From contig NZ_SGWV01000007.1 of the NCBI RefSeq assembly GCF_004216565.1, positions 744,001 to 808,000 of the forward strand: a DNA stretch of 64,000 nucleotides. Reading direction: 5' to 3'. Position numbers and translations under genes: made by a program. Positions within the stretch are counted from its first letter, which is position 1, and every line of letters starts with the position of its first letter. The notes under the pieces were generated by a model that ran no database searches, was not told the DNA's origin, and was given only the letters and a program-made list of their open reading frames with translations. The DNA is from Sphaerotilus mobilis. Its GTDB lineage: Bacteria; Pseudomonadota; Gammaproteobacteria; Burkholderiales; Burkholderiaceae_C. This document shows positions 27,431-37,955 of the stretch, piece after piece.

Positions 27431-28162
27431 ATGACCACTGACCTGCACACCGCCAACATCGAACTGCTGCCCGCTGCGGGCGCCCCGCGCCAGCTGATGC
27501 TGCTGCTGCACGGTGTCGGTGCCAACGCCGCCAATCTGCTGCCGCTGGGCCGCGTGCTGCGGGCCCACTTCCCGCAGGCGGCGGTGATCTCGCTGCAGGG
27601 CTACGAGCCCTTCGACGGCATGCCGCACGACGGCTCGGCACGGCAGTGGTTCTCGATCCGCGGTGATGTCGAGGCGCAACGGCCAGCGCGCGTCGCCGCC
27701 GTGCTGCCGCGTCTGGTCGCCGACATCCGCGCGCACCAGGAACGCCTGGGCGTCGGCGAGGCGGCCACCGCGCTGGTCGGTTTCTCGCAAGGCACCATCC
27801 TGTCGCTGGAGGCGGTCGCCGCCCGCGACGGCCTGGCCGGCCGCGTGCTGGCCTTCAGCGGCCGCTACGCCAGCCTGCCAGCCCAGGCACCGAAGCTGAC
27901 CACCCTGCACTTCTTCCACGGCGGCGCCGACCCGGTCATCCCCGTGCGTCATGCCAAGGAGGCGATGCAGCACCTGGCCCAGCTCGAAGGCAGTGACGCC
28001 ACGCTCGACATCGCCGAAGGCATCGGCCATGAGCTGGACGCGGCGCTGCTGGACTGCGCCCTGCACCGCCTGACCCACCACATCCCGATGCGGACCTGGC
28101 AGGCCGCGCTGGGCGGCGTCGCGGCAGCGGCCTCGCCGGGCGGGGATGACACGCTGCAGTGA
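27431..28162 (+). CDS. alpha/beta-hydrolase, carboxylesterase (YpfH-like)
   Basis: This 243-residue cytoplasmic alpha/beta-hydrolase belongs to the phospholipase/carboxylesterase group. It has LLLHGVGANAANL (oxyanion region), the nucleophile elbow GFSQG (Ser near residue 119), an Asp in HGGADPVIP and a His in GIGHELDA. The start ATG 27431 is the first that gives the normal N-terminus. It lies between the threonine aldolase and a convergent MFS gene, with no functional link visible. The substrate is unknown. Confidence 0.88.
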   Translation: MTTDLHTANIELLPAAGAPRQLMLLLHGVGANAANLLPLGRVLRAHFPQAAVISLQGYEPFDGMPHDGSARQWFSIRGDVEAQRPARVAAVLPRLVADIRAHQERLGVGEAATALVGFSQGTILSLEAVAARDGLAGRVLAFSGRYASLPAQAPKLTTLHFFHGGADPVIPVRHAKEAMQHLAQLEGSDATLDIAEGIGHELDAALLDCALHRLTHHIPMRTWQAALGGVAAAASPGGDDTLQ

Positions 28163-28180
28163 CCCGTCCGGTCGCCCCGC

Positions 28181-29458
28181 TCAGCGAACGGGCGGGGCCG
28201 CGCGCAGCGCCAGCAAGGCCGCCCAGGCACTCAGGCCAACGGCGGCGGTGACCCACAGCGCGTTGGCCTGCAGGTGGTCCAGCACCAGGCCGAACAGATA
28301 GGGCGCGAGCGCCTGGGCGATCCGGGCAGGCAACATCAGCCAGCCTTGCCGGGCACCGTAGTGGCCGCTGCCGAACAAGGCCAGTGGCAGGGTGCCCTTG
28401 GCGATCGTCAGCACGCCGTTGCCGGCGCCATGCAGCAGGCCGAACAGCGGCGCGAAGACCGGACCACCGACCATCAGCACGCCCACCCCGAGCGGGTGCA
28501 TCGCCGCCGCCAGCCGGGCCGACAGCAGCGGGTGGACCCGGCGCAGCCAGCCGAACTCCAGCAGGCGTCCGGCCACCTGGGCCGGACCGATCAGGCTGCC
28601 CACCCACACGGCGCCGGCCGCCGTGGTGCCGGCGGCCTGCATCAGCCGGGGCAGATGCGAGGCCATGGCGGTCGAGATGAACCAGGTCGCCGAGAAGACA
28701 AAGGACAGGATCAGCATCGGCCACCAAGACGCTGCTGACGCCTCGGGCGATGGCGGCGGCTCACGGGTCTGGGTCTCGGTCTGGTTCTCGGTCTGGGTCT
28801 TGTCGAGCGCGGTGTCATCTGCTGACAGCACCGCTGGCAGCACCGCCGGCAACACCGCCGCCGGCTGCAGCGCGGGCACGACCTTCGGCAGCAGGGCGTT
28901 GAGGGGCAGGCCGATCAGCAGGTGCAACGCCGCCCAGGTGAAACAGGCCGAGCGCCAGCCGTGTTCGGCCGCCAGCCATGTCGACAGCGGCCAGCCGACG
29001 GTGCTGGCAAAGCCGGCGAACAAGGTGACGCCGGTGATGCTGGCGCGTGCCCCCTGGCCCTGCAGGCGCACCAGCGCCGCAAAGGCCGCGTCATAGAGCC
29101 CGCTGCCCATGCCCAGCCCAATCAGCAACCAGGCCGCGAACAGGCTGACCGGCCCCTGTGCCAGCCCGAGCGCCGCCAGACCCAGGGCGAACACGACGCT
29201 GGTGCCCATCAGCACCGGCCGGCCGCCAAGCCGGTCGATGGCAGCACCGGCCAGCGGCCCGACTGCGGCGGCCAGGATCAGCGCCAGGCTGAAGGCGGCG
29301 AACACCGTCGGCACGGAGGTTCCCAGCTCCTGCGCGATCGGCGTGGCGAGGATGGCGGGCAGGTAGTAGGTCGACGCCCAGGCCAGCGTCTGCGCCGTGC
29401 CCAGACTGACCACGGTCCGTGCCGGGACGGGCACGGTCATCGACGCGGGGAAGGTCAT
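28181..29458 (-). CDS. MFS transporter with repeat-rich central loop
   Basis: This 425-residue inner-membrane protein has about 12 helices in two halves. The loop between the halves (about residues 205-245) is low-complexity: an Ala-Val-Leu-Pro repeat followed by a Thr/Gln/Glu repeat (TQTENQTETQT). The DNA shows short tandem units there (28767-28803 and 28828-28862). The fold resembles oxalate/formate or monocarboxylate-type MFS carriers, but no substrate can be assigned. ATG 29458 and ATG 29440 are both possible; neither has a clear ribosome site. Confidence 0.82.
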   Translation of the reverse strand: MTFPASMTVPVPARTVVSLGTAQTLAWASTYYLPAILATPIAQELGTSVPTVFAAFSLALILAAAVGPLAGAAIDRLGGRPVLMGTSVVFALGLAALGLAQGPVSLFAAWLLIGLGMGSGLYDAAFAALVRLQGQGARASITGVTLFAGFASTVGWPLSTWLAAEHGWRSACFTWAALHLLIGLPLNALLPKVVPALQPAAVLPAVLPAVLSADDTALDKTQTENQTETQTREPPPSPEASAASWWPMLILSFVFSATWFISTAMASHLPRLMQAAGTTAAGAVWVGSLIGPAQVAGRLLEFGWLRRVHPLLSARLAAAMHPLGVGVLMVGGPVFAPLFGLLHGAGNGVLTIAKGTLPLALFGSGHYGARQGWLMLPARIAQALAPYLFGLVLDHLQANALWVTAAVGLSAWAALLALRAAPPVR

Positions 29459-29506
29459 GCGGCCGAGGCTAGGTGAATCGCTCCGGGCCGACAAGTTGCC
29501 GCAGAC

Positions 29507-31024
29507 CTAGAACAACTGCCCTTGACCGTCGGCTGCGGCGGGGCTGCGGCGTCGCCTCGGGGTCGGGTTGCCGCTGGGTGGCAGGCCGCTCTTGCGCGAG
29601 CCGTGTTGCTGCTGGATGGCGTCGGCCTCGACCCGCGCACCGGGGGTCTGACGCACGCCATACAAGCTGGCCTTGGCGGCGGCCAGCGCCGAGCGCTCGT
29701 CGACCAGCGGCGCTGGGTAGGCGGGGGTTCCGAGCTCAGGCACCCAGCGGCGCACGTACAGGCCGTGTGGATCGTGGTCACGCGCCTGCTTGGCGGGCGA
29801 GTAGACCCTCAATGTGTTGATGCCGGTGGTGCCCGACTGCATCTGCATCTGGCTCCAGTGGATGCCGGGCTCGAAGTCCAGGAACTGGCGGGCCAGGAAC
29901 AGACCCGGCTCGCGCCAGTGCAGGCCCAGGTGGTAGGCCGCGAAGCTGACCAGCATCGCCCGCATCCGGAAGTTGAGCCAGCCGGTCGCACGCAGCTGGC
30001 GCATGCAGGCGTCGACCATGGGGTAGCCGGTGCGGCCCTCGCACCAGGCCTGCAGCCGCTCGGCGTCGACCGGGCCGGGGTGCACGCCGTCGCCGGGCCG
30101 CAGGCCGTCGATCGAGCGGGCGAGGTTGCGGAACTCCAGATCCGGCTGGTCTTCAAGCTTCTGCATGAAGTGGCAGTGCCAGCGCAGCCGGCTGGCAAAG
30201 CCGCGCAGGCCCCAGGCCAGCGCGCGGTCGGCCGTGCCGGCGATGCGCGCCTCGGTGGCCTGGTGCACGCAGCGCATCGAGACCGTGCCGAAGGCCAGGT
30301 GTTCGCTCAGGCGGCTGCAGCCCTCGGCGGCGGTCAAGGGGCTGGACAGCGCGCTGCGGTAGTCGCGGCCACGGCCGCCGAGAAAGTCCGCCAGCACGGC
30401 CCAGGCGGCCGGCTCGCCTGCGCTCGGCAGCGCAGCGACGGGTGTCGGCAGCCCCAGATCCCGCAAGGTCGGCAGGGGTCGGGCCTCCAGCGGCAACGCG
30501 CCCTGGAAGGCAACAGGCTGAGGCACCTCGGCCGCGTTCATCCGCGCGGTCCAGCGACCGGCCCAGCCCAGGCGCGAACGCAGGCGCCGGACCACGCCGG
30601 TCTGCGGCCATTCTTGCCAGCGCACGCCGACGTGGCGGCACCAGTCGGCCACGGCGAGGTCGCGTGTGTAGGTCCAGCCAGGGCCGGTTTCTTCATGGCT
30701 GAGCAGGTGCGTGACGCCGATGTCCTCTCGCAGCGACGACAGCGCCGCCAGCATGTCGCCCACGCAGACCCGCAGCGGCAGGCCCCGTGCGGCCAGGTCG
30801 TCGCGCAGGCGCGCCACGCAGGCCAGCAGGAAGGCGACATGGCGCGGGTCGCATTCGGGACTGGCCAGCCACGCCGGCTCGATCACCACCAGACCCAGCG
30901 CCCGGCCGATGCGCGCCGCCTCGGCCAGCGGGGCGTGGTCGCGCAGACGCAGGTCGCGCTTGAACCAGACGACCGCCGTGGGCGTGCCGGCACCCGAGCC
31001 CGTGCCCGCGCCCGGTTCAGCCAT
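29507..31024 (-). CDS. cryptochrome/DNA photolyase family protein
   Basis: This 505-residue flavoprotein has an N-terminal photolyase alpha/beta domain ([17 protein letters not shown], about 18-150) and a C-terminal FAD-binding helical domain. The FAD region contains [38 protein letters not shown] and [16 protein letters not shown]. It also has [13 protein letters not shown], which marks a subgroup distinct from classic class I enzymes. Where those enzymes usually have Asn-Arg after TGW, this has Asn-Phe. A 35-residue basic, low-complexity tail ends the protein. Its start overlaps the (6-4) photolyase gene by 8 bases, so they are coupled. Whether it repairs CPDs or only senses light is unknown. 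Confidence 0.88.
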
Positions 31025-32570
31025 GCAGTGCCCCGACCTCGCCCCGACGGATCGCGTCGGCGCGCACGCGCACGGCCTGGCGGTCGGCGTCGTCCAGGCG
31101 AGCAAGGTTCTTCACCTGCAAGGCCATGCGCGGGTGGGCGGCCAGCCGGGCTTCGTGGCGCATCAGGAAGTCCCAGTAGAGCGTCGTGTAGGGACAGGCC
31201 CGCTCGCCGCTGCGCTGGGCCGGGTCGTAGCGACAGCCCTGGCAATGCGGCCCCATGCGTTCGAGGTAGCGGCCGGTGGCGACATAGGGCTTGCTGCCCA
31301 TCAGGCCGCCGTCGGCGTACTGGCTCATGCCCAGCGTGTTGGGCAGTTCGACCCATTCGACCGCATCGACATAGACCGCCAGATACCAAGCATGGACCTG
31401 GCGCGGCTGCACGCCCAGCATCAACGCATACAGGCCGGTCACCATCAGGCGCTGGATGTGGTGGGCGTAGCCGTGCGCCAGCGTCTGCGTCAGCGCGTCG
31501 CGCAGGCAGGCCAGGTCGGTGGCGCCGGTCCAGAACCAGGCGGGCAGATCTTCTTGCGCGTCCAGCGCGTTGGCGTCGGCATAGCCCGGCATGCGGGTCC
31601 AGTAGATGCCGCGCACGTACTCGCGCCAGCCCAGGATCTGCCGGATGAAACCTTCGGCACTGGCCAGCGGCACATGGCCGGCGCGCCAAGCCGCCTCGGC
31701 TGCGGCCACCACTTCGCGCGGGTTCAGGAGCTTCAGGTTGAGCGCGGCCGACAGGTGCGAGTGGTAGAGCCACGGGTCGCCCGGCCACAGCGCATCTTGA
31801 TAGCGGCCGAACAGCGGCAGGCGATCGGTGATGAAGGCTTGCAGCGCCAACAAGGCCTGGTCGCGGGTCACCGGCCAGGCGAAGCTGTCGAGCCGGCCCG
31901 GGTGGTCGGCAAAACGCCGGGCGACGAGGTCAAGCACCTCGCGGGTCACCGCATCGGGCTCGAAGGTCGACCGCGGCGGCAGAAAGCCGGGGCCGTCCGG
32001 GCCGAAGGCGGCGCGGTTGTCGGCGTCGTAGTTCCACTGGCCGCCTGCCGGCTCGTCGTCCTGCATCAGGACCTGGAAGCGCCGCCGCTGCTCGCGGTAG
32101 AAGTGCTCCATGCGCAAGGCCTTGCGCCCTCGGGCGTGGGCCGCGAAATCGCGCACGCTGGTGAAGAAGTGGCGGTCCTCGCGCACGTCCAGCGGCAAAC
32201 CGGCCTCGGCCGCCACGGCCTGGATCGCCTGCAGCACCCGCCAGTCGCCCGGTGCGGTCATCACCAGTTCGGACGGCCGGATCCGGGCGAGGTCCTGCGC
32301 CAATTGAGCCGCCAGACTGCCCACATTGCCGGGCGCGTCGAGCCGGGTGTAGACCAGCGCCCGACCGGCGTCCTGCAGGGCGATCGCAAAGTGCCGCATC
32401 GCGGCCAGAAACACGGCGATGCGTGGCTGGCCGGACCAGACGTGGGTGGACTCCTCGGCGACCTCGGCCATCCAAACCGTGTCGACGGCCGGGTCGAAGC
32501 CATCGAAGGCTGCAGCTTCGAGGTCGAGCTGGTCGCCCAGCACGATGACCAGGCGGCGCGTGTCAGCCAT
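31017..32570 (-). CDS. iron-sulfur bacterial (6-4) photolyase (PhrB/FeS-BCP family)
   Basis: This 517-residue protein matches the FeS-BCP family, whose Agrobacterium member PhrB repairs (6-4) photoproducts. The N-terminus ([20 protein letters not shown]) is the family's lumazine-antenna domain. The four cluster cysteines are visible at about 355 (DLACLRD), 443 and 446 (CQGC) and 459 (ACPY), matching the spacing in PhrB. The FAD region includes [20 protein letters not shown]. The start ATG is 2 bases after the DUF2256 stop. Confidence 0.93.
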
Positions 32571-32572
32571 GG

Positions 32573-32740
32573 TCAGCGCCCAAGGGCCTTTTGACGCCGG
32601 CAGGCGTCGGAGCAGTACTTCACCTCGTCCCAGTTCTTCGCCCAGCGGTGGCGCCAGCTCATGGCCCGACCGCAGGACATGCAGGGCTTGCTGGGCAAGG
32701 CGGCCTTGTTGCCCCGGAAGCCGCTGGCGCGTCCGCTCAC
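32573..32740 (-). CDS. DUF2256 zinc-ribbon-like small protein
   Basis: This 55-residue protein has the DUF2256 layout: GNKAALPSKPC, CGR, WRHRWAKNWDEVKYCSDACR, with four Cys that could bind a metal. The GTG start at 32740 overlaps the stop of the oxidoreductase gene (GTGA) and gives the normal N-terminus; an ATG 39 bases upstream would read inside that gene. DUF2256 genes are often found beside photolyase/cryptochrome genes. Its function is not established. Confidence 0.85.
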   Translation of the reverse strand: MSGRASGFRGNKAALPSKPCMSCGRAMSWRHRWAKNWDEVKYCSDACRRQKALGR

Positions 32741-33900
32741 GACAGGGCCTCGACCAGCGCTGTCTGCTGAACCTGGCACGGCGTCATCAGCGCATGGGCC
32801 AGCGCCCGGCCTGACAACCAGGCGGCTTCGACGCCGACGCTGTCCAGCCCTTCACCTCCCGCATCCCCCCCGGCGTCATCGGCCCGCGCCAGCATGGCGG
32901 TGCCAAGGAAATCGCCACAGACGCCCAAACCCTGCGCGCGGTCCCACCAGCAGGCCGGCGTCGCCCCGGCGACCGGCGGCAGGCCATAGCGCCAACGGTG
33001 CACCGTCGTGTGCAGCCAGTCGACCGGACGTCCCAAGGCGCTGGCGAGCGCGGCCTGCATCTGCGCGGCGACCCACTGCGGCGACTGTTCCAGATGCTGC
33101 AGGCTCCAGTCGGTGCGGGCATGCGCCACCCAGTGCGCCTGACCAGCCACCTGCGGGCGGCCGGGACGGGCGTCTTGCCGCAGCACCCAGGCCAGCGGAC
33201 CGTCGACCGGCCGCGCCAGATCCCACTCCCCAGACCACGACGCACCGCCGCCAGATGCATCGATCGCTTGCGCGCCGAGCGCCTCCACGCCCATCAGGGT
33301 CCAGCAGGCCTGCATGGGGGTCCGCGCCGCCGTGCCCGCCCAGTCCGGCCGATGCGGCGCCAGCAAGGTCGCCGCCTGGGCCGGCGGCATGGCGATCAGC
33401 ACGGCATCGAACAAGGCCCCGAGACGCTCACCGCCGACCTGCAACTGCCAGCCCTCGGGCGTGTGATGCAGCGCCTCGACCGCCGACTCCCAGGTGATCT
33501 CCGAGCCTTCGAGCAACTGGCGGCAGACGGCCGGCAGGTCCGGCACCGGCAGGTGGATCGGGCGGACGTCGTCCAGCGGCCGGCTGCCGTGGGCGAGCCG
33601 TGGCGACCAGCGGGTCAGCCAGCCGCCCGACACGCCCATGTCGACCCATGCGCCAAAAGCCCTGCTGCGCGCCGTGATGCCCAGTGCGCCATGGTCCAGC
33701 CGGGTGGTCCAGGCCCGGCCATCGAGGTCCTTCCACGTCATGCGGCGGGTGGCCATCCGGCCTCCCGGGCCGCGTGCCTTGTCGAACACCTGCACCGTGT
33801 GGCCGGCCATGGCCAAGGCGTGGGCACAGGTGGCACCGGCCATGCCGGCACCGATCACGGCCATGCTGCGCAGAGGTCTGGATGTCATGGTGCGCAGCAT
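32737..33900 (-). CDS. FAD-dependent oxidoreductase, renalase-like
   Basis: This 387-residue protein begins with an FAD-binding Rossmann motif (AVIGAGMAGATCAHALAMAG) and GPGGRMATRR, typical of renalase-like amine oxidase-fold proteins. A C-terminal FAD block (GLGVCGDFLGTAML) follows. It is the first gene of the photolyase cluster, divergent from the MerR gene. ATG 33900 gives the full frame; ATGs at 33888 and 33864 are alternatives, and the last begins directly on the FAD motif. The substrate is unknown. Supplying reducing power for the photolyases would be a guess. Confidence 0.85.
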   Translation of the reverse strand: MLRTMTSRPLRSMAVIGAGMAGATCAHALAMAGHTVQVFDKARGPGGRMATRRMTWKDLDGRAWTTRLDHGALGITARSRAFGAWVDMGVSGGWLTRWSPRLAHGSRPLDDVRPIHLPVPDLPAVCRQLLEGSEITWESAVEALHHTPEGWQLQVGGERLGALFDAVLIAMPPAQAATLLAPHRPDWAGTAARTPMQACWTLMGVEALGAQAIDASGGGASWSGEWDLARPVDGPLAWVLRQDARPGRPQVAGQAHWVAHARTDWSLQHLEQSPQWVAAQMQAALASALGRPVDWLHTTVHRWRYGLPPVAGATPACWWDRAQGLGVCGDFLGTAMLARADDAGGDAGGEGLDSVGVEAAWLSGRALAHALMTPCQVQQTALVEALS

Positions 33901-33934
33901 AGGTTTTTCATCGCCAAGTCGGCGTCAATCACAG

Positions 33935-33945
33935 GTCAGTCTGAC
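33935..33945. promoter_or_regulatory. small dyad between the oxidoreductase and MerR genes
   Basis: A perfect 5-1-5 dyad (GTCAG-T-CTGAC) lies in the 93-base gap between the divergent genes. On the minus strand a TTGACG (33923-33928) lies 21 bases from a TATGCT (33896-33901), an over-long spacing like those that MerR activators can correct. The dyad is a candidate regulator site; the assignment is tentative. Confidence 0.35.
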
Positions 33946-33993
33946 AATTGAGTCGGCTTTTCCGCGTCAACCTCGATTCACTGCAAGTCGCCC

Positions 33994-35124
33994 ATGCGCC
34001 AGACGAACCGCTCCAGCCCCCCGCCAGCCACCGCACACGCCACGGCAAACGCCCCAGCACTCGCCCCGGACCCGACCCCGGCAGCTGCGGTCGACGCCAC
34101 CTTGCACCGCAGCGGCGCGGTTGCGCGCATGTTGCGCATGCCGGTCGCCACCTTGCGCGTCTGGGAGCGTCGGTACGGCCTGACGCAGCCGGTCCTGTCG
34201 CCCAGCGGTCAAAGGCTCTATGACGCCGATGACGTGCGGCGTCTGGCGCTCATCCGGCAGCTCACCGACCTGGGTCATGCGATCGGTCGCCTGGCGGGGC
34301 TGGACATGGCCCAGTTGCAGCAGGTCGCCGCCACCCATGCGCAAGCCCTGGCCAGCCGACAGGCTGAGCCGTCGGCCTTGGCGACGTCGCCCGGCCTGCG
34401 GCCCTGGCGCGTTGCAGTGATCGGACCGACGCTGGCCGCACGGCTGGAGCGCCCGGCCCTGCTGCGTCGACTGTCCCGCGCGGTGGCGCAGGTTGAACGC
34501 TGCGACAGCCTGGACGTGGTGCGGGCACGCCTGTACGACGGGCCATCGGCCGGCATCGACGCCCTGTTGATCCACGCCCCCAGCCTCGCGATCGAGGGGC
34601 TTGAGTCCTTGATCGACGCGTCGCCGGGATCGACCGCCTGGGCGAAGCTGCCCAAGGCCGTGCTCTACCGCTACGGCAGCGAGGCCACCTGCACGGCCTT
34701 GAGCGATGCCGGTGTCCGCTTGCTGCGCGAGCCGCAGCCCGACGCGGTGCTGGCGCAGTGGCTGGACCCGCTGGCGCGGATGACGTCGACCGACGCGCCG
34801 GAGGCCTTCGCGTTCAACGGGTCGGCCGAGCCGGTGTCGCCCCGGCGTTGGGACGACGCCGCGCTGGCGGACTTCGCCGGCCTGTCGTCGACCATCGCCT
34901 GCGAATGCCCGCGCCATGTCGCCGAGTTGCTGGTCCAGCTGTCGCATTTCGAGGCCTACAGCGCCGACTGCGCCCACCGCAGCCCGGACGACGCCGACCT
35001 GCATCGCTACCTGGGCCAGATCTCCGCCCGCGCCCGCTCAGACTTCGAGGCAGCGCTGGAGGCCGTGGCGCGCCATGAGGGCTTGCTGCTGCCGCAACAG
35101 GCGCCGCGTGCCGGGTCGGCCTGA
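33994..35124 (+). CDS. MerR-family regulator of the photolyase cluster, cobalamin motif absent
   Basis: This 376-residue protein has a MerR winged-helix domain after a Pro/Ala-rich leader (SGAVARMLRMPVATLRVWER through RRLALIRQL, about 40-110). A Rossmann-like domain (about 135-270) sits where LitR/CarH light regulators bind adenosylcobalamin, but no DxHxxG or ExHxxG motif is present. A C-terminal helical domain (about 295-365) holds a CECPRH cluster and a further Cys and His nearby, which might bind metal. It is divergent from the photolyase cluster and the likely regulator. How it would sense light is unclear. Confidence 0.82.
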   Translation: MRQTNRSSPPPATAHATANAPALAPDPTPAAAVDATLHRSGAVARMLRMPVATLRVWERRYGLTQPVLSPSGQRLYDADDVRRLALIRQLTDLGHAIGRLAGLDMAQLQQVAATHAQALASRQAEPSALATSPGLRPWRVAVIGPTLAARLERPALLRRLSRAVAQVERCDSLDVVRARLYDGPSAGIDALLIHAPSLAIEGLESLIDASPGSTAWAKLPKAVLYRYGSEATCTALSDAGVRLLREPQPDAVLAQWLDPLARMTSTDAPEAFAFNGSAEPVSPRRWDDAALADFAGLSSTIACECPRHVAELLVQLSHFEAYSADCAHRSPDDADLHRYLGQISARARSDFEAALEAVARHEGLLLPQQAPRAGSA

Positions 35125-35179
35125 TCGGGTCCCGCGCCGTCTCACGCGCAAGGACGGCCCGGGCATCCCAGGCCGGCGC

Positions 35180-35716
35180 TCACTGGACCGGCCCGTCCAT
35201 CCCGTCGGGCAGAGCCACCGAGAAGAACTCGATGCCTTCCTCGCGCAAGGCCTCGGCCTCGTCGGGGGTGGTCTTGCCGCGGATCTGGCGTTCCTCGGTC
35301 TCACCGTAGTGGATGCGGCGAGCCTCTTCCGCGAAGCGCGGGCCGACATCTTCGGTGCGGGTCATCAGCTCGCGCACGGCGTGCAGATAGGCCGCTTGCA
35401 TCACGGCGGCATGGGCGGCGGCTTCGGGCGTCAGCGGCGGCGCCGGTGCATCGGTCGCCGAGGCCGCAACAAGCGCAGCGCCTGGCTGGCCCGTCGGTGC
35501 GGTTGAGGGCCGGGCAGCGTCGACAGCCCGGCCGCGCGGCTCACGAGCACCCGACAGGTTCAGTCGCGGCGCGGAGGGCAGGCGGTGGATCTCATGGCTG
35601 CTGCAGACCGGGCAGGTCAGCAGACCACGGGCCTGCTGGTCGGCGATGTCGGCTTCGGAGCCGAACCAGCCTTCGAAGCCATGCCCGGCGACGCATTGCA
35701 GATTGAGAACCTTCAT
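35180..35716 (-). CDS. DUF1178 family protein
   Basis: This 178-residue protein begins MKVLNLQCVAGHGFEGWFGS and has a paired-Cys motif (TCPVCSS) forming a rubredoxin-like ribbon with the N-terminal Cys. An Ala/Pro-rich middle is followed by a helical end with RRIHYGETEERQIRG. DUF1178 has no known function. The gene lies 10 bases after the NUDIX gene on the same strand and is probably co-transcribed with it. Confidence 0.87.
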   Translation of the reverse strand: MKVLNLQCVAGHGFEGWFGSEADIADQQARGLLTCPVCSSHEIHRLPSAPRLNLSGAREPRGRAVDAARPSTAPTGQPGAALVAASATDAPAPPLTPEAAAHAAVMQAAYLHAVRELMTRTEDVGPRFAEEARRIHYGETEERQIRGKTTPDEAEALREEGIEFFSVALPDGMDGPVQ

Positions 35717-35725
35717 GGCGGGAAA

Positions 35726-36370
35726 TTATCCGGCGGCGACGTGTTCGGCCTCGGTCTTCCAGGCCAAGTCCCACAGACCGGCCCGCCATTGCTGGATCCA
35801 CAGCAGGCCGACCAGCGTCTTGGCATCGGTGACGGCGCCGTCGCGGCACCAGGCGGCCAGTTCTTCTGCGGTGGCGGCAAAGACGTCGAGGAACTCGCCC
35901 TCGTCGAGCGAGCGCTCGCCAGCGGTCAGGCCACGCGCCAGCCAGACCTGGATGTGCTCGGTCGCATAGGCGATGGCGTTGTGCAGCTGGCCGGCATGGG
36001 CCCACTCGGCGGCCTCGTAGCCGGTCTCCTCACGCAGCTCGCGCACGGCACAGCGGATGCCGGCCTCGCCCACCTCGAGCTTGCCGGCAGGGAACTCGAT
36101 CATGGCCCGCTGCAGCGGGTAGCGGTACTGGCGTTCGAGCAGCAGCCGGCCGTCGTCAAGCAGCGGGATCACCATCACCGCGCCGTTGTGCACGATGTAC
36201 TCACGCGTCGCCCGGCCGCCGTCGGGCAGGCTGACATGGTCCAGACGGACATCGAGCAGCCGGCCGCGGAAGACCTGCTCGCTGCTCAGCGGCTTCTCGA
36301 TCAGGTGAGCGTCCCCGCTGGGCAGATCGGCCAGCGTGGGCAGGGCAGGCGGCGTCGGATGTGGGGTCAT
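35726..36370 (-). CDS. NUDIX hydrolase, ADP-ribose pyrophosphatase type
   Basis: This 214-residue protein carries a complete Nudix box (GKLEVGEAGIRCAVRELREE then TG, about 95-117), with the catalytic Glu residues present. The upstream MVIPLLDDGRLLLERQYRYP strand is typical of ADP-ribose pyrophosphatases (NudF-like). It lies 106 bases downstream of nuoN and directly before the DUF1178 gene. The substrate is inferred from subfamily resemblance. Confidence 0.88.
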   Translation of the reverse strand: MTPHPTPPALPTLADLPSGDAHLIEKPLSSEQVFRGRLLDVRLDHVSLPDGGRATREYIVHNGAVMVIPLLDDGRLLLERQYRYPLQRAMIEFPAGKLEVGEAGIRCAVRELREETGYEAAEWAHAGQLHNAIAYATEHIQVWLARGLTAGERSLDEGEFLDVFAATAEELAAWCRDGAVTDAKTLVGLLWIQQWRAGLWDLAWKTEAEHVAAG

Positions 36371-36420
36371 GCGGTGATCCTGTCAGTGCGGCGGGCCCAT
36401 GGCGAGCCCCTGGATGGACG

Positions 36421-36454
36421 ACGGCCCCGCGAGCCGATGGCTGCGCGGGGCCGT
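36421..36454 (-). terminator. GC hairpin downstream of nuoN
   Basis: An 11-bp stem (ACGGCCCCGCG and its complement) with a 12-base loop lies 23 bases after the nuoN stop. It is not followed by a T-run, so it is at best a weak or Rho-assisted terminator, or an mRNA 3'-end stabiliser for the complex I operon. Confidence 0.45.
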
Positions 36455-36476
36455 GTTCGGCAGGTCGGGACGTCGA

Positions 36477-37955
36477 TCAGGTCGCCAGCGCCTTGATGGC
36501 ATAGGCGCACATCGCCATCAGGCCACCGGGCAACACGCCCAGGACCAGCACGGCCGCGCCGTTGAGCGACAGCACCGCACGGGCCTGGCCCGGGGCCTGG
36601 ATGGCGCTGGTGTCGGTCGCCTCGTCGAAGTACATGACCTTGACCACCCGCAGGTAGTAGAAGGCGCCGATCAGCGACATCATCACCGAGAAGATCGCCA
36701 GGCCGATGTAGCCGCTGTCGTTGGTCGAGACCAGTGCCTGCAGCACCGACAGCTTGGCGTAGAAGCCCACCGTCGGCGGGATGCCGGCCAGCGAGAACAT
36801 GAACACGCCCATCACGGCCGCCATCAGCGGATTGCGCTGATTCAGGCCGGCGAGGTCGTCGATCTGGTCGGCCTCGAAGCCTTGGCGGGCCATCAGCATG
36901 ATCAGGCCGAAGGTGCCCAGCGTCGTGACCACATAGGTCAGGATGTAGAACATCGCCGAGCTGTAGGCGTTGGCGGCCGACACGGTGTTGCCGTTGATGA
37001 CGCCCGGCACGAGACCCAGCAGCACAAAGCCCATCTGCGCGATGGTCGAGTACGCCAGCATGCGCTTCAAGTTGGTCTGGGCGATGGCGGCCAGGTTGCC
37101 GACCACCAGCGAACAGACCGACAGCACCACCAGCATCTGCTGCCAGTCCACGGCCAGACCGATCAGGCCATCGACCAGCAGGCGCATGGCCATGCCGAAG
37201 GCCGCGATCTTGGGCGCGCCCGCGATCAGCAGCGTCGCCGCCGTGGGGGCGCCGTGGTAGACGTCGGGCACCCACATGTGGAAGGGCACGGCGCCGAGCT
37301 TGAAGGCCAGACCGGAGACGATGAAGACGATGCCAAAGACCAGCACCTGCTTGTTGGGCTCGCCCTTGTTGATGGCCTCGAACACGCCGGCCAGTTCGAG
37401 GCTGCCGGTCGCGCCGTACATCATCGACATGCCGTAGAGCAGGAAGCCCGAGGCCAGCGCGCCCAACACGAAGTACTTCATCGCCGCCTCGGTGGCCTGC
37501 GCATGGTCACGTCGCAGCGCCACCAGCGCGTAGAGCGACAGGCTCATCAGCTCCAGGCCGAGGTAGATCATCAGCAGGTTGGCACCCGACACCATGATCG
37601 CGATGCCCAGCAGCGAGAACAGGCTGAGCGTGAACAGCTCGCCCTTGAGCATCTCGCGGCTGGCCACATAGGGCTGCGCATAGACCAGCGTGACGGCCAC
37701 CGCGACGGTGGCGAAGAAGGTCAGCAGATGCCCCATCGGGTCCGAGACGATCATGCCGCCAGCGGCGAACTCGGGCGTCGGGTTCTGGAAATAGACCAGG
37801 TGCAAGGCGCCGTAGACGGCCAGCGTCAACAGAGTCAGGCGGTAGGTGGGCCGGCGCTGCGGGTCGGTGACGAAGAGGTCGGCCAGCGCGACGATGCAGG
37901 CCATCACCAGCAGCACGATCTCCGGAAGGATCGCGTTCCAGTTCATCGAGGTCAT
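36477..37955 (-). CDS. nuoN: NADH-quinone oxidoreductase subunit N
   Basis: NuoN is one of three antiporter-like proton-pumping membrane subunits of complex I. The 492-residue protein has 14 predicted helices and the conserved Lys-bearing motif near HYAYS-type sequence (here MLAYSTIAQMGFVLLG). It is the last gene of the nuo operon, 20 bases after nuoM. Confidence 0.95.
   Translation of the reverse strand: MTSMNWNAILPEIVLLVMACIVALADLFVTDPQRRPTYRLTLLTLAVYGALHLVYFQNPTPEFAAGGMIVSDPMGHLLTFFATVAVAVTLVYAQPYVASREMLKGELFTLSLFSLLGIAIMVSGANLLMIYLGLELMSLSLYALVALRRDHAQATEAAMKYFVLGALASGFLLYGMSMMYGATGSLELAGVFEAINKGEPNKQVLVFGIVFIVSGLAFKLGAVPFHMWVPDVYHGAPTAATLLIAGAPKIAAFGMAMRLLVDGLIGLAVDWQQMLVVLSVCSLVVGNLAAIAQTNLKRMLAYSTIAQMGFVLLGLVPGVINGNTVSAANAYSSAMFYILTYVVTTLGTFGLIMLMARQGFEADQIDDLAGLNQRNPLMAAVMGVFMFSLAGIPPTVGFYAKLSVLQALVSTNDSGYIGLAIFSVMMSLIGAFYYLRVVKVMYFDEATDTSAIQAPGQARAVLSLNGAAVLVLGVLPGGLMAMCAYAIKALAT

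Follow-up and report, generated by a model that had tools for sequence, protein, structure and literature searches.

What might join a small zinc-finger-type protein to a light-driven DNA repair enzyme? The question is raised by a locus of Sphaerotilus mobilis that lies in a window of 64,000 nucleotides (nt) (contig NZ_SGWV01000007.1 of assembly GCF_004216565.1, positions 744,001 to 808,000; coordinates below are those of the window). Four genes, read from the window DNA, form a run on its minus strand, encoding a renalase-like flavin adenine dinucleotide (FAD) oxidoreductase, a protein of the DUF2256 family, an iron-sulfur photolyase of the FeS-BCP group, and a second cryptochrome/photolyase-family enzyme, here called PHR2. 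A gene for a MerR-family regulator is divergent from them. We consider it probable that the locus is an operon for the repair of UV and light damage in which DUF2256 would be a zinc protein that serves FeS-BCP, with PHR2 as a second enzyme, the renalase-like protein as an optional helper, and MerR in control. The kinds of gene are known; what is new is the partnership between DUF2256 and FeS-BCP and the active site of PHR2.

An association of the two is apparent at the level of whole genomes. Among 200 genomes of the order (the order sample), DUF2256 was found in 63, the FeS-BCP family (PF04244) in 67, and both in 58 (Fisher odds ratio, 165; p 1.7e-34). PF04244 was thus present in 58/63 genomes with DUF2256 versus 9/137 without it, and the link with photolyases supposed in the initial annotation of this DNA was borne out in stronger form. 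A phylum sample of 249 genomes gave 52 with DUF2256, 52 with PF04244, and 45 with both (odds ratio, 174; PF04244 in 45/52 with DUF2256 versus 7/197 without). The two samples overlap in some genomes; leaving out the 11 shared ones that were identified gives 46, 47, and 40 of 238, respectively. Among 114 genomes of Bacteroidota, the counts were 34, 33, and 31 (odds ratio, 403), with PF04244 in 31/34 genomes that have DUF2256 versus 2/80 that lack it. Operon linkage does not explain this pairing, because 24 of the 45 co-occurring pairs in the phylum sample and 15 of the 31 in Bacteroidota are >3 kb apart or on other contigs. The association in the order sample also held when stratified by family (p 4e-9; 18 informative families), in a test that covers 151 of the 200 genomes, the remaining 49 having neither DUF2256 nor PF04244.

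When named genomes were scanned with the DUF2256 alignment (the named set), 571 stretches were confirmed, and among the best 80 of these, many of them from metagenome-assembled genomes (MAGs), FeS-BCP is encoded in 76/80 genomes. The titles include cyanobacteria, Bacteroidota, actinobacteria, Opitutaceae, a Pirellula, and a Chloroflexi MAG. By profile match, FeS-BCP is inside the DUF2256 locus in 44 of the 80, and of the remaining 36 genomes, 32 have PF04244 at another site; the four genomes without it (L256, L276, L295, and L299) are all MAGs. Of 14 control genomes, Caulobacter and Synechococcus elongatus have both families, Haloferax has PF04244 alone, and 11 have neither. This near-constant co-occurrence, even of unlinked genes, suggests that DUF2256 is probably an unrecognised helper of FeS-BCP.

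Gene neighbourhoods give a broader picture. At 35/65 places in the order sample, DUF2256 precedes FeS-BCP on the same strand at a distance of <200 nt. In the neighbourhood map, which covers 64 of these places (G051 is outside it), a same-strand photolyase-family gene is within 300 nt of DUF2256 at 44/64 and a photolyase-family gene within 3 kb at 51/64. The nearest partner at the 44 places is FeS-BCP in 35, PHR2 in 5, a NewPHL-like gene in 2, and Cry-DASH in 2. Of the best 80 loci of the named set, 52 have a photolyase-family gene on the same strand within 300 nt (FeS-BCP, 39; PHR2, 8; NewPHL-like, 2; Cry-DASH, 3), and 23 have no photolyase-family gene. Because such varied types adjoin it, DUF2256 is a general photolyase-neighbourhood gene, with its dependence on FeS-BCP seen at the genome level.

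A conserved order of oxidoreductase, DUF2256, and photolyase had also been expected, and this was not borne out. The uninterrupted order renalase-like, DUF2256, FeS-BCP, PHR2 occurs only in the window among the loci mapped in the order sample and the named set, and a renalase-like gene is within 6 kb of FeS-BCP at 6 of the 38 renalase places in the order sample. The gene set recurs in relatives; its order does not, and fixed gene order was therefore ruled out as a signal of function. In Comamonas granuli (L330), the matches run MerR-like, renalase-like, PHR2, DUF2256, FeS-BCP, while G164:C51 has the gene set of the window together with DCC1-like, NewPHL-like, and short-chain dehydrogenase/reductase (SDR) genes, the DCC1-like and SDR genes being assigned by Pfam on representatives. 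A DCC1-like thiol-disulfide oxidoreductase recurs near photolyases at L151, L154, L159, L160, L182, L251, L252, L257, and L259, at several of them with an SDR gene. Both the variable order and the low renalase linkage would be expected if the tight packing were incidental, that is, if the window held an ordinary cluster of a UV-exposed lifestyle brought together by shuffling, with no special partnership. However, that explanation does not predict the co-occurrence of unlinked DUF2256 and FeS-BCP genes, and we regard it as very unlikely.

Several observations weigh against a dedicated role of DUF2256 at FeS-BCP. Of the genomes with PF04244, 9/67 in the order, 7/52 in the phylum, and 2/33 in the Bacteroidota sample have no DUF2256 match, and neither has the control Haloferax, so that DUF2256 is not needed by every FeS-BCP, although some matches may have been missed (first-look candidates were not all scored in every genome, and false negatives are possible). 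Conversely, DUF2256 occurs without PF04244 in 5/63, 7/52, and 3/34 genomes of the three samples, two of the three Bacteroidota cases being weak partial DUF2256 matches. No position in FeS-BCP separates genomes with DUF2256 from those without it, when a separating position is one conserved in >85% of one group and <50% of the other (103 proteins, 9 of them from genomes without a DUF2256 match). DUF2256 also adjoins PHR2, Cry-DASH, or NewPHL-like genes, and at 13/64 places in the order sample it has no photolyase-family gene within 3 kb. Class I-like photolyases (121 genomes in the genome table) co-occur with DUF2256 as well, more weakly (odds ratio of 8.9 unstratified, versus 165). Finally, rhodopsin, a marker of lit habitats, was tried as a control for a light-exposed lifestyle and set aside as uninformative: it is found in 3/200 order genomes, all 3 of which carry DUF2256 and PF04244, which if anything favours an explanation by lifestyle.

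In such an explanation, DUF2256 would be a general light-response protein, such as a regulator or an RNA- or DNA-binding stress factor, found with photolyases because of a common lifestyle and without acting jointly with them. The varied photolyase-family, SDR, renalase-like, and MerR genes beside DUF2256, the places without a nearby photolyase gene, and the rhodopsin genomes are all consistent with it. The association with FeS-BCP is nevertheless far above that with class I-like photolyases, also within families (p 4e-9 versus 0.96), although the latter value comes from only 6 informative families and, with 49 genomes left out of the family test, has little power. We judge a shared lifestyle quite unlikely as the explanation and a partnership of DUF2256 with FeS-BCP more probable.

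The genes of the window are packed as the initial annotation had described, with all five found in place and the junctions confirmed from the DNA (Table 1). The stop codon of the renalase-like gene and the start of DUF2256 share 4 nt (GTGA, 32740-32737), from which the GTG start of DUF2256 was inferred. Two nucleotides (32572-32571) separate the DUF2256 stop from the photolyase ATG, and the PHR2 ATG overlaps the FeS-BCP stop by 8 nt (31024-31017). The MerR ATG (33994) and the divergent renalase-like start (33900) are separated by 93 nt. On the same strand, an ArsK-like MFS transporter gene, absent from the initial annotation of the cluster, starts 12 nt (TTG, 29494) or 48 nt (ATG, 29458) past the PHR2 stop, and the run may therefore comprise five genes. 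A sigma-70 consensus scan of positions 28000-36500 gave 0 promoter-like sites (shuffle mean, 0.5).

Table 1. Features of the locus, with window coordinates and the evidence for each assignment
Feature	Position	Strand	Evidence
ArsK-like MFS transporter; possible fifth member of the transcript	28181..29494	-	PF07690; NF033733 222.8 bits, cut-off of 400 not reached
PHR2, second cryptochrome/photolyase-family enzyme	29507..31024	-	PF00875 + PF03441; own clade, SH-aLRT 100; active-site replacements
FeS-BCP, PhrB/CryB-type prokaryotic (6-4) photolyase	31017..32570	-	PF04244 250.5 bits; PhrB 4dja E 6.6e-156; four Cys
DUF2256, small zinc-finger-type protein, 55 aa from inferred GTG	32573..32740	-	PF10013 70.5 bits (gathering cut-off 25)
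Renalase-like FAD oxidoreductase	32737..33900	-	Bacterial renalase 4zcc E 7.7e-26; PF13450
Divergent intergenic region	33901..33993	.	One TGAGT element
MerR-family regulator, C-terminal CECPxH...C module	33994..35124	+	PF13411; 17-member alignment; AF2 model

The DUF2256 protein passes the gathering score of its family, and its features suggest a small zinc finger. Across 68 DUF2256 sequences, a CxxC...CxxxC motif is invariant, as are K12, L15, P16, C20, C23, W29, R30, W33, W37, C43, S44, and C47. The predicted structure has two short strands followed by a helix (mean predicted local distance difference test [pLDDT], 77.5; predicted template modelling score [pTM], 0.50) and, as a model, is as expected for a treble clef. 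Foldseek gave no significant match for it; the first ones listed were an FCS finger (E 0.46) and gyrase-bound YacG (E 0.49). We found no convincing fusion of DUF2256 with a photolyase, the long frames around DUF2256 being apparent chance frames in GC-rich DNA; no wider search for fusions was made. YacG, which we take to be the DUF329 protein, resembles DUF2256 in these nonsignificant matches, as do the FCS zinc fingers, and in belonging to the TRASH clan. According to the available part of the published account, DUF2256 and DUF329 are both in that clan (PMC4047054). Unlike YacG, which acts on gyrase, DUF2256 has a photolyase as its genome-level partner.

We infer that DUF2256 binds zinc in a small treble-clef fold and works together with FeS-BCP, where it might serve in docking, lesion engagement, or cluster assembly. 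By analogy with YacG on gyrase, it would most likely dock on FeS-BCP or on its DNA substrate, and such docking could allow efficient maturation or delivery of the enzyme, which in turn would repair (6-4) photoproducts in the light. PHR2 would carry out a second light-driven flavin reaction. The earlier idea that the small proteins of the locus help to reduce or assemble its flavin and FeS enzymes is a guess. In a more specific form, DUF2256 would be an assembly factor that helps FeS-BCP to acquire its [4Fe-4S] cluster or flavin but stays outside the working enzyme. Its genome-level partner is indeed the FeS member of the photolyase family, a small CxxC...CxxxC protein could hold metal, and the gene is just upstream of that of the enzyme in the window. 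Set against this, the invariant Trp, Arg, Lys, Leu, Pro, and Ser residues seem more like those of a zinc finger that binds protein or nucleic acid, DUF2256 also directly adjoins photolyase-family genes of other groups, and Haloferax and some other genomes with PF04244 have no DUF2256 match. An assembly factor thus appears unlikely to us, and a partner acting with FeS-BCP remains the preferred reading.

The photolyase itself conforms to its group. Its closest solved relative is PhrB (4dja), aligned over residues 6-509, and it also matches CryB (3zxs; E 1.5e-151). Its matches among solved structures comprise 8 distinct sequences, PhrB first, all of them PhrB, CryB, FeS-BCP/CryPro, or photolyase-related proteins. 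An FeS (6-4)-type photolyase had been proposed, and all four cluster cysteines were found: among 103 aligned proteins, Cys355, Cys443, Cys446, and Cys459 are kept in 98-99% of 94 FeS-BCPs and in 9/9 from genomes without a DUF2256 match. By the PhrB alignment, these would be the [4Fe-4S] ligand positions. At two loci, L231 and L300, the gene directly before FeS-BCP is that of a class I-like photolyase (-2 and 29 nt by profile match); further photolyase types thus pair with it. At L155, L180, L268, and L318, FeS-BCP or Cry-DASH genes are seemingly in pieces, through frameshift, decay, or assembly error.

PHR2 belongs to none of the photolyase groups with which it was compared. It has an N-terminal PF00875 and a C-terminal PF03441 domain. 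It reaches no NCBIfam subfamily cut-off, and its scores against the class I models are low (TIGR03556, 158 with a cut-off of 884.6; NF007955, 129.3 with a cut-off of 506). These cut-offs do not decide the matter, because a class I-like enzyme encoded in the genome itself falls short of both as well (399.6 and 398.7). Against the Cry-DASH model TIGR02765, PHR2 scores 134.8, under the cut-off of 317.05, whereas a DASH neighbour in L171 scores 377.3. In a quick tree of 60 proteins (PHR2, 18; Cry-DASH, 13; class I-like, 5; NewPHL/SPL-like, 10; FeS-BCP, 14), with support from the Shimodaira-Hasegawa-like approximate likelihood ratio test (SH-aLRT) and no bootstrap, the 18 PHR2 rows form one group with an SH-aLRT of 100, versus 80 for the SPL-like and 77 for the class I-like group; SPL and PHR1 (class I-like) are labels given in this analysis. 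By these sequence comparisons, PHR2 forms a clade of its own, outside the rows of class I-like, Cry-DASH, NewPHL/SPL-like, and FeS-BCP proteins.

The active site sets it apart as well. In columns at least 90% conserved among the 18 PHR2 rows, R308, F381, and H418 take the place of Glu, Asn, and Asn in all class I-like (5 rows compared) and all Cry-DASH rows, and A385 and M424 replace Met and Trp in all class I-like rows, where Cry-DASH has Gln and mostly Tyr (residues are numbered in the stop-to-stop frame; counted from the ATG at 31024, the numbers are lower by 29). H418 stands at the Asn on the flavin side. The five residues presumably correspond to Glu274, Asn341, Asn378, Met345, and Trp384 of the Escherichia coli enzyme. 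In view of these replacements, PHR2 should not be called a cyclobutane pyrimidine dimer (CPD) photolyase on sequence alone. A class I assignment was rejected by the tree and the active-site columns, one to Cry-DASH by these and the TIGR02765 cut-off, and one to NewPHL/SPL by the tree and the domain order, with PF00875 N-terminal. The available part of the literature defines NewPHL/SPL as a short protein with inverted domain order (PMC13274461). The view that the second enzyme falls in a subgroup of unclear activity is supported, with PHR2 standing as its own clade and its active site remodelled. PHR2, counted as order-sample places with at least 239 bits plus pieces in G051, occurs in 39 genomes of that sample, of which 39/39 have PF04244 and 38/39 have DUF2256.

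The linkage of the renalase-like gene to the cluster is weaker. Bacterial renalase oxidizes 2- or 6-dihydro-NAD(P). The window protein is assigned to this type by homology (residues 13-346 align with 4zcc), and its linkage to FeS-BCP is low. The gene is present in 37/200 order genomes, 30 of which have PF04244. It and DUF2256 lie within 400 nt of each other in the window, G133, L257, L292, and L296. It may be an optional flavin or nicotinamide redox helper. The genome G133, of the same family as the window, has no PF04244 match; its DUF2256 gene (L153), which adjoins renalase-like, lipocalin-like, and MerR-like genes, is a rare case of DUF2256 without FeS-BCP.

The divergent MerR protein probably controls the operon as a relative of LitR/CarH. 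The domain search yields the MerR helix-turn-helix (HTH) alone, with no B12-binding domain detected. In the AlphaFold2 (AF2) model, the HTH is followed by a Rossmann-like middle and a helical C-terminal part (mean pLDDT, 79.6; pTM, 0.48), and Foldseek places CarH first (E 2.7e-06), with TM-scores of <0.3. In 17 relatives, C303-E-C305-P, F319-E-x-Y-S, and C326 are invariant and H308 is conserved in at least 90%; these C-terminal CECP...C residues might hold a metal or cofactor. With B12 domains not detected, light control of the locus is no more than plausible. The TGAGT element occurs 20 times upstream of the 17 MerR-family genes (shuffle mean, 5.45; maximum, 13; 500 shuffles). Repeated copies upstream of MerR in L122-L125 and L259 form a possible operator; the window has a single copy. 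A second MerR protein of the genome (L207, C7, 110000-121000) has B12-binding_2 above and B12-binding below the cut-off, and its gene is divergent from amine-oxidase-like and CMAS (cyclopropane synthase type) genes, a neighbourhood reminiscent of the Pseudomonas light cluster.

The latter comparison extends to the window. According to the available part of the work on Pseudomonas mendocina, LitR/CarH-controlled light clusters there comprise pmlR1 with phrB, an SDR gene, an FAD oxidoreductase gene, and ufaM, and also cryB, which with PME7070 is predicted to form a single transcript that changes similarly on illumination (PMC9758184). MerR, photolyase, SDR, and FAD oxidoreductase types recur in our loci, although the window MerR differs from LitR/CarH in its lack of detected B12-type domains and the available part of that account does not name DUF2256 (PMC9758184). 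Synechococcus PCC 7335 has a UV-B operon in which, as far as the accessible part of its description goes, two photolyase-family genes overlap by 11 nt (PMC9649867). The window likewise has two overlapping in one run. In PCC 7335, one of the two genes encodes a photolyase and the other a PhrSph98-like enzyme (PMC9649867).

PhrB of Agrobacterium fabrum and CryB of Rhodobacter sphaeroides share near full-length homology and the four cluster cysteines with the window FeS-BCP, which, unlike these enzymes as described, is encoded with DUF2256 and PHR2. In the literature searched, outside which most subscription papers lie, we found no link between DUF2256 and photolyases, no paper pairing renalase with photolyase, and none naming a DUF2256 partner for FeS-BCP; the neighbourhood may already be visible in annotation databases. 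DUF2256 is among the domains of unknown function that are often met in small proteins (PMC11796252).

Only tentatively do we extend this to the wider proposal, which may well not hold, that the prokaryotic FeS (6-4) photolyase has in DUF2256 its dedicated zinc-finger subunit or chaperone across many phyla, a second component that has been overlooked and is retained with the enzyme even where the genes are unlinked, and that the remodelled flavin pocket of PHR2 possibly supports a new photoreaction. PHR2 is a photolyase-family enzyme with consistent replacement of residues that are uniform in class I-like enzymes. If the partnership is real, an enzyme so far studied as a single protein would gain a second component, a frequent small-protein domain would be assigned a role, and the conserved small partner would provide a handle on the function of the FeS-BCP cluster, on lesion recognition, or on maturation.

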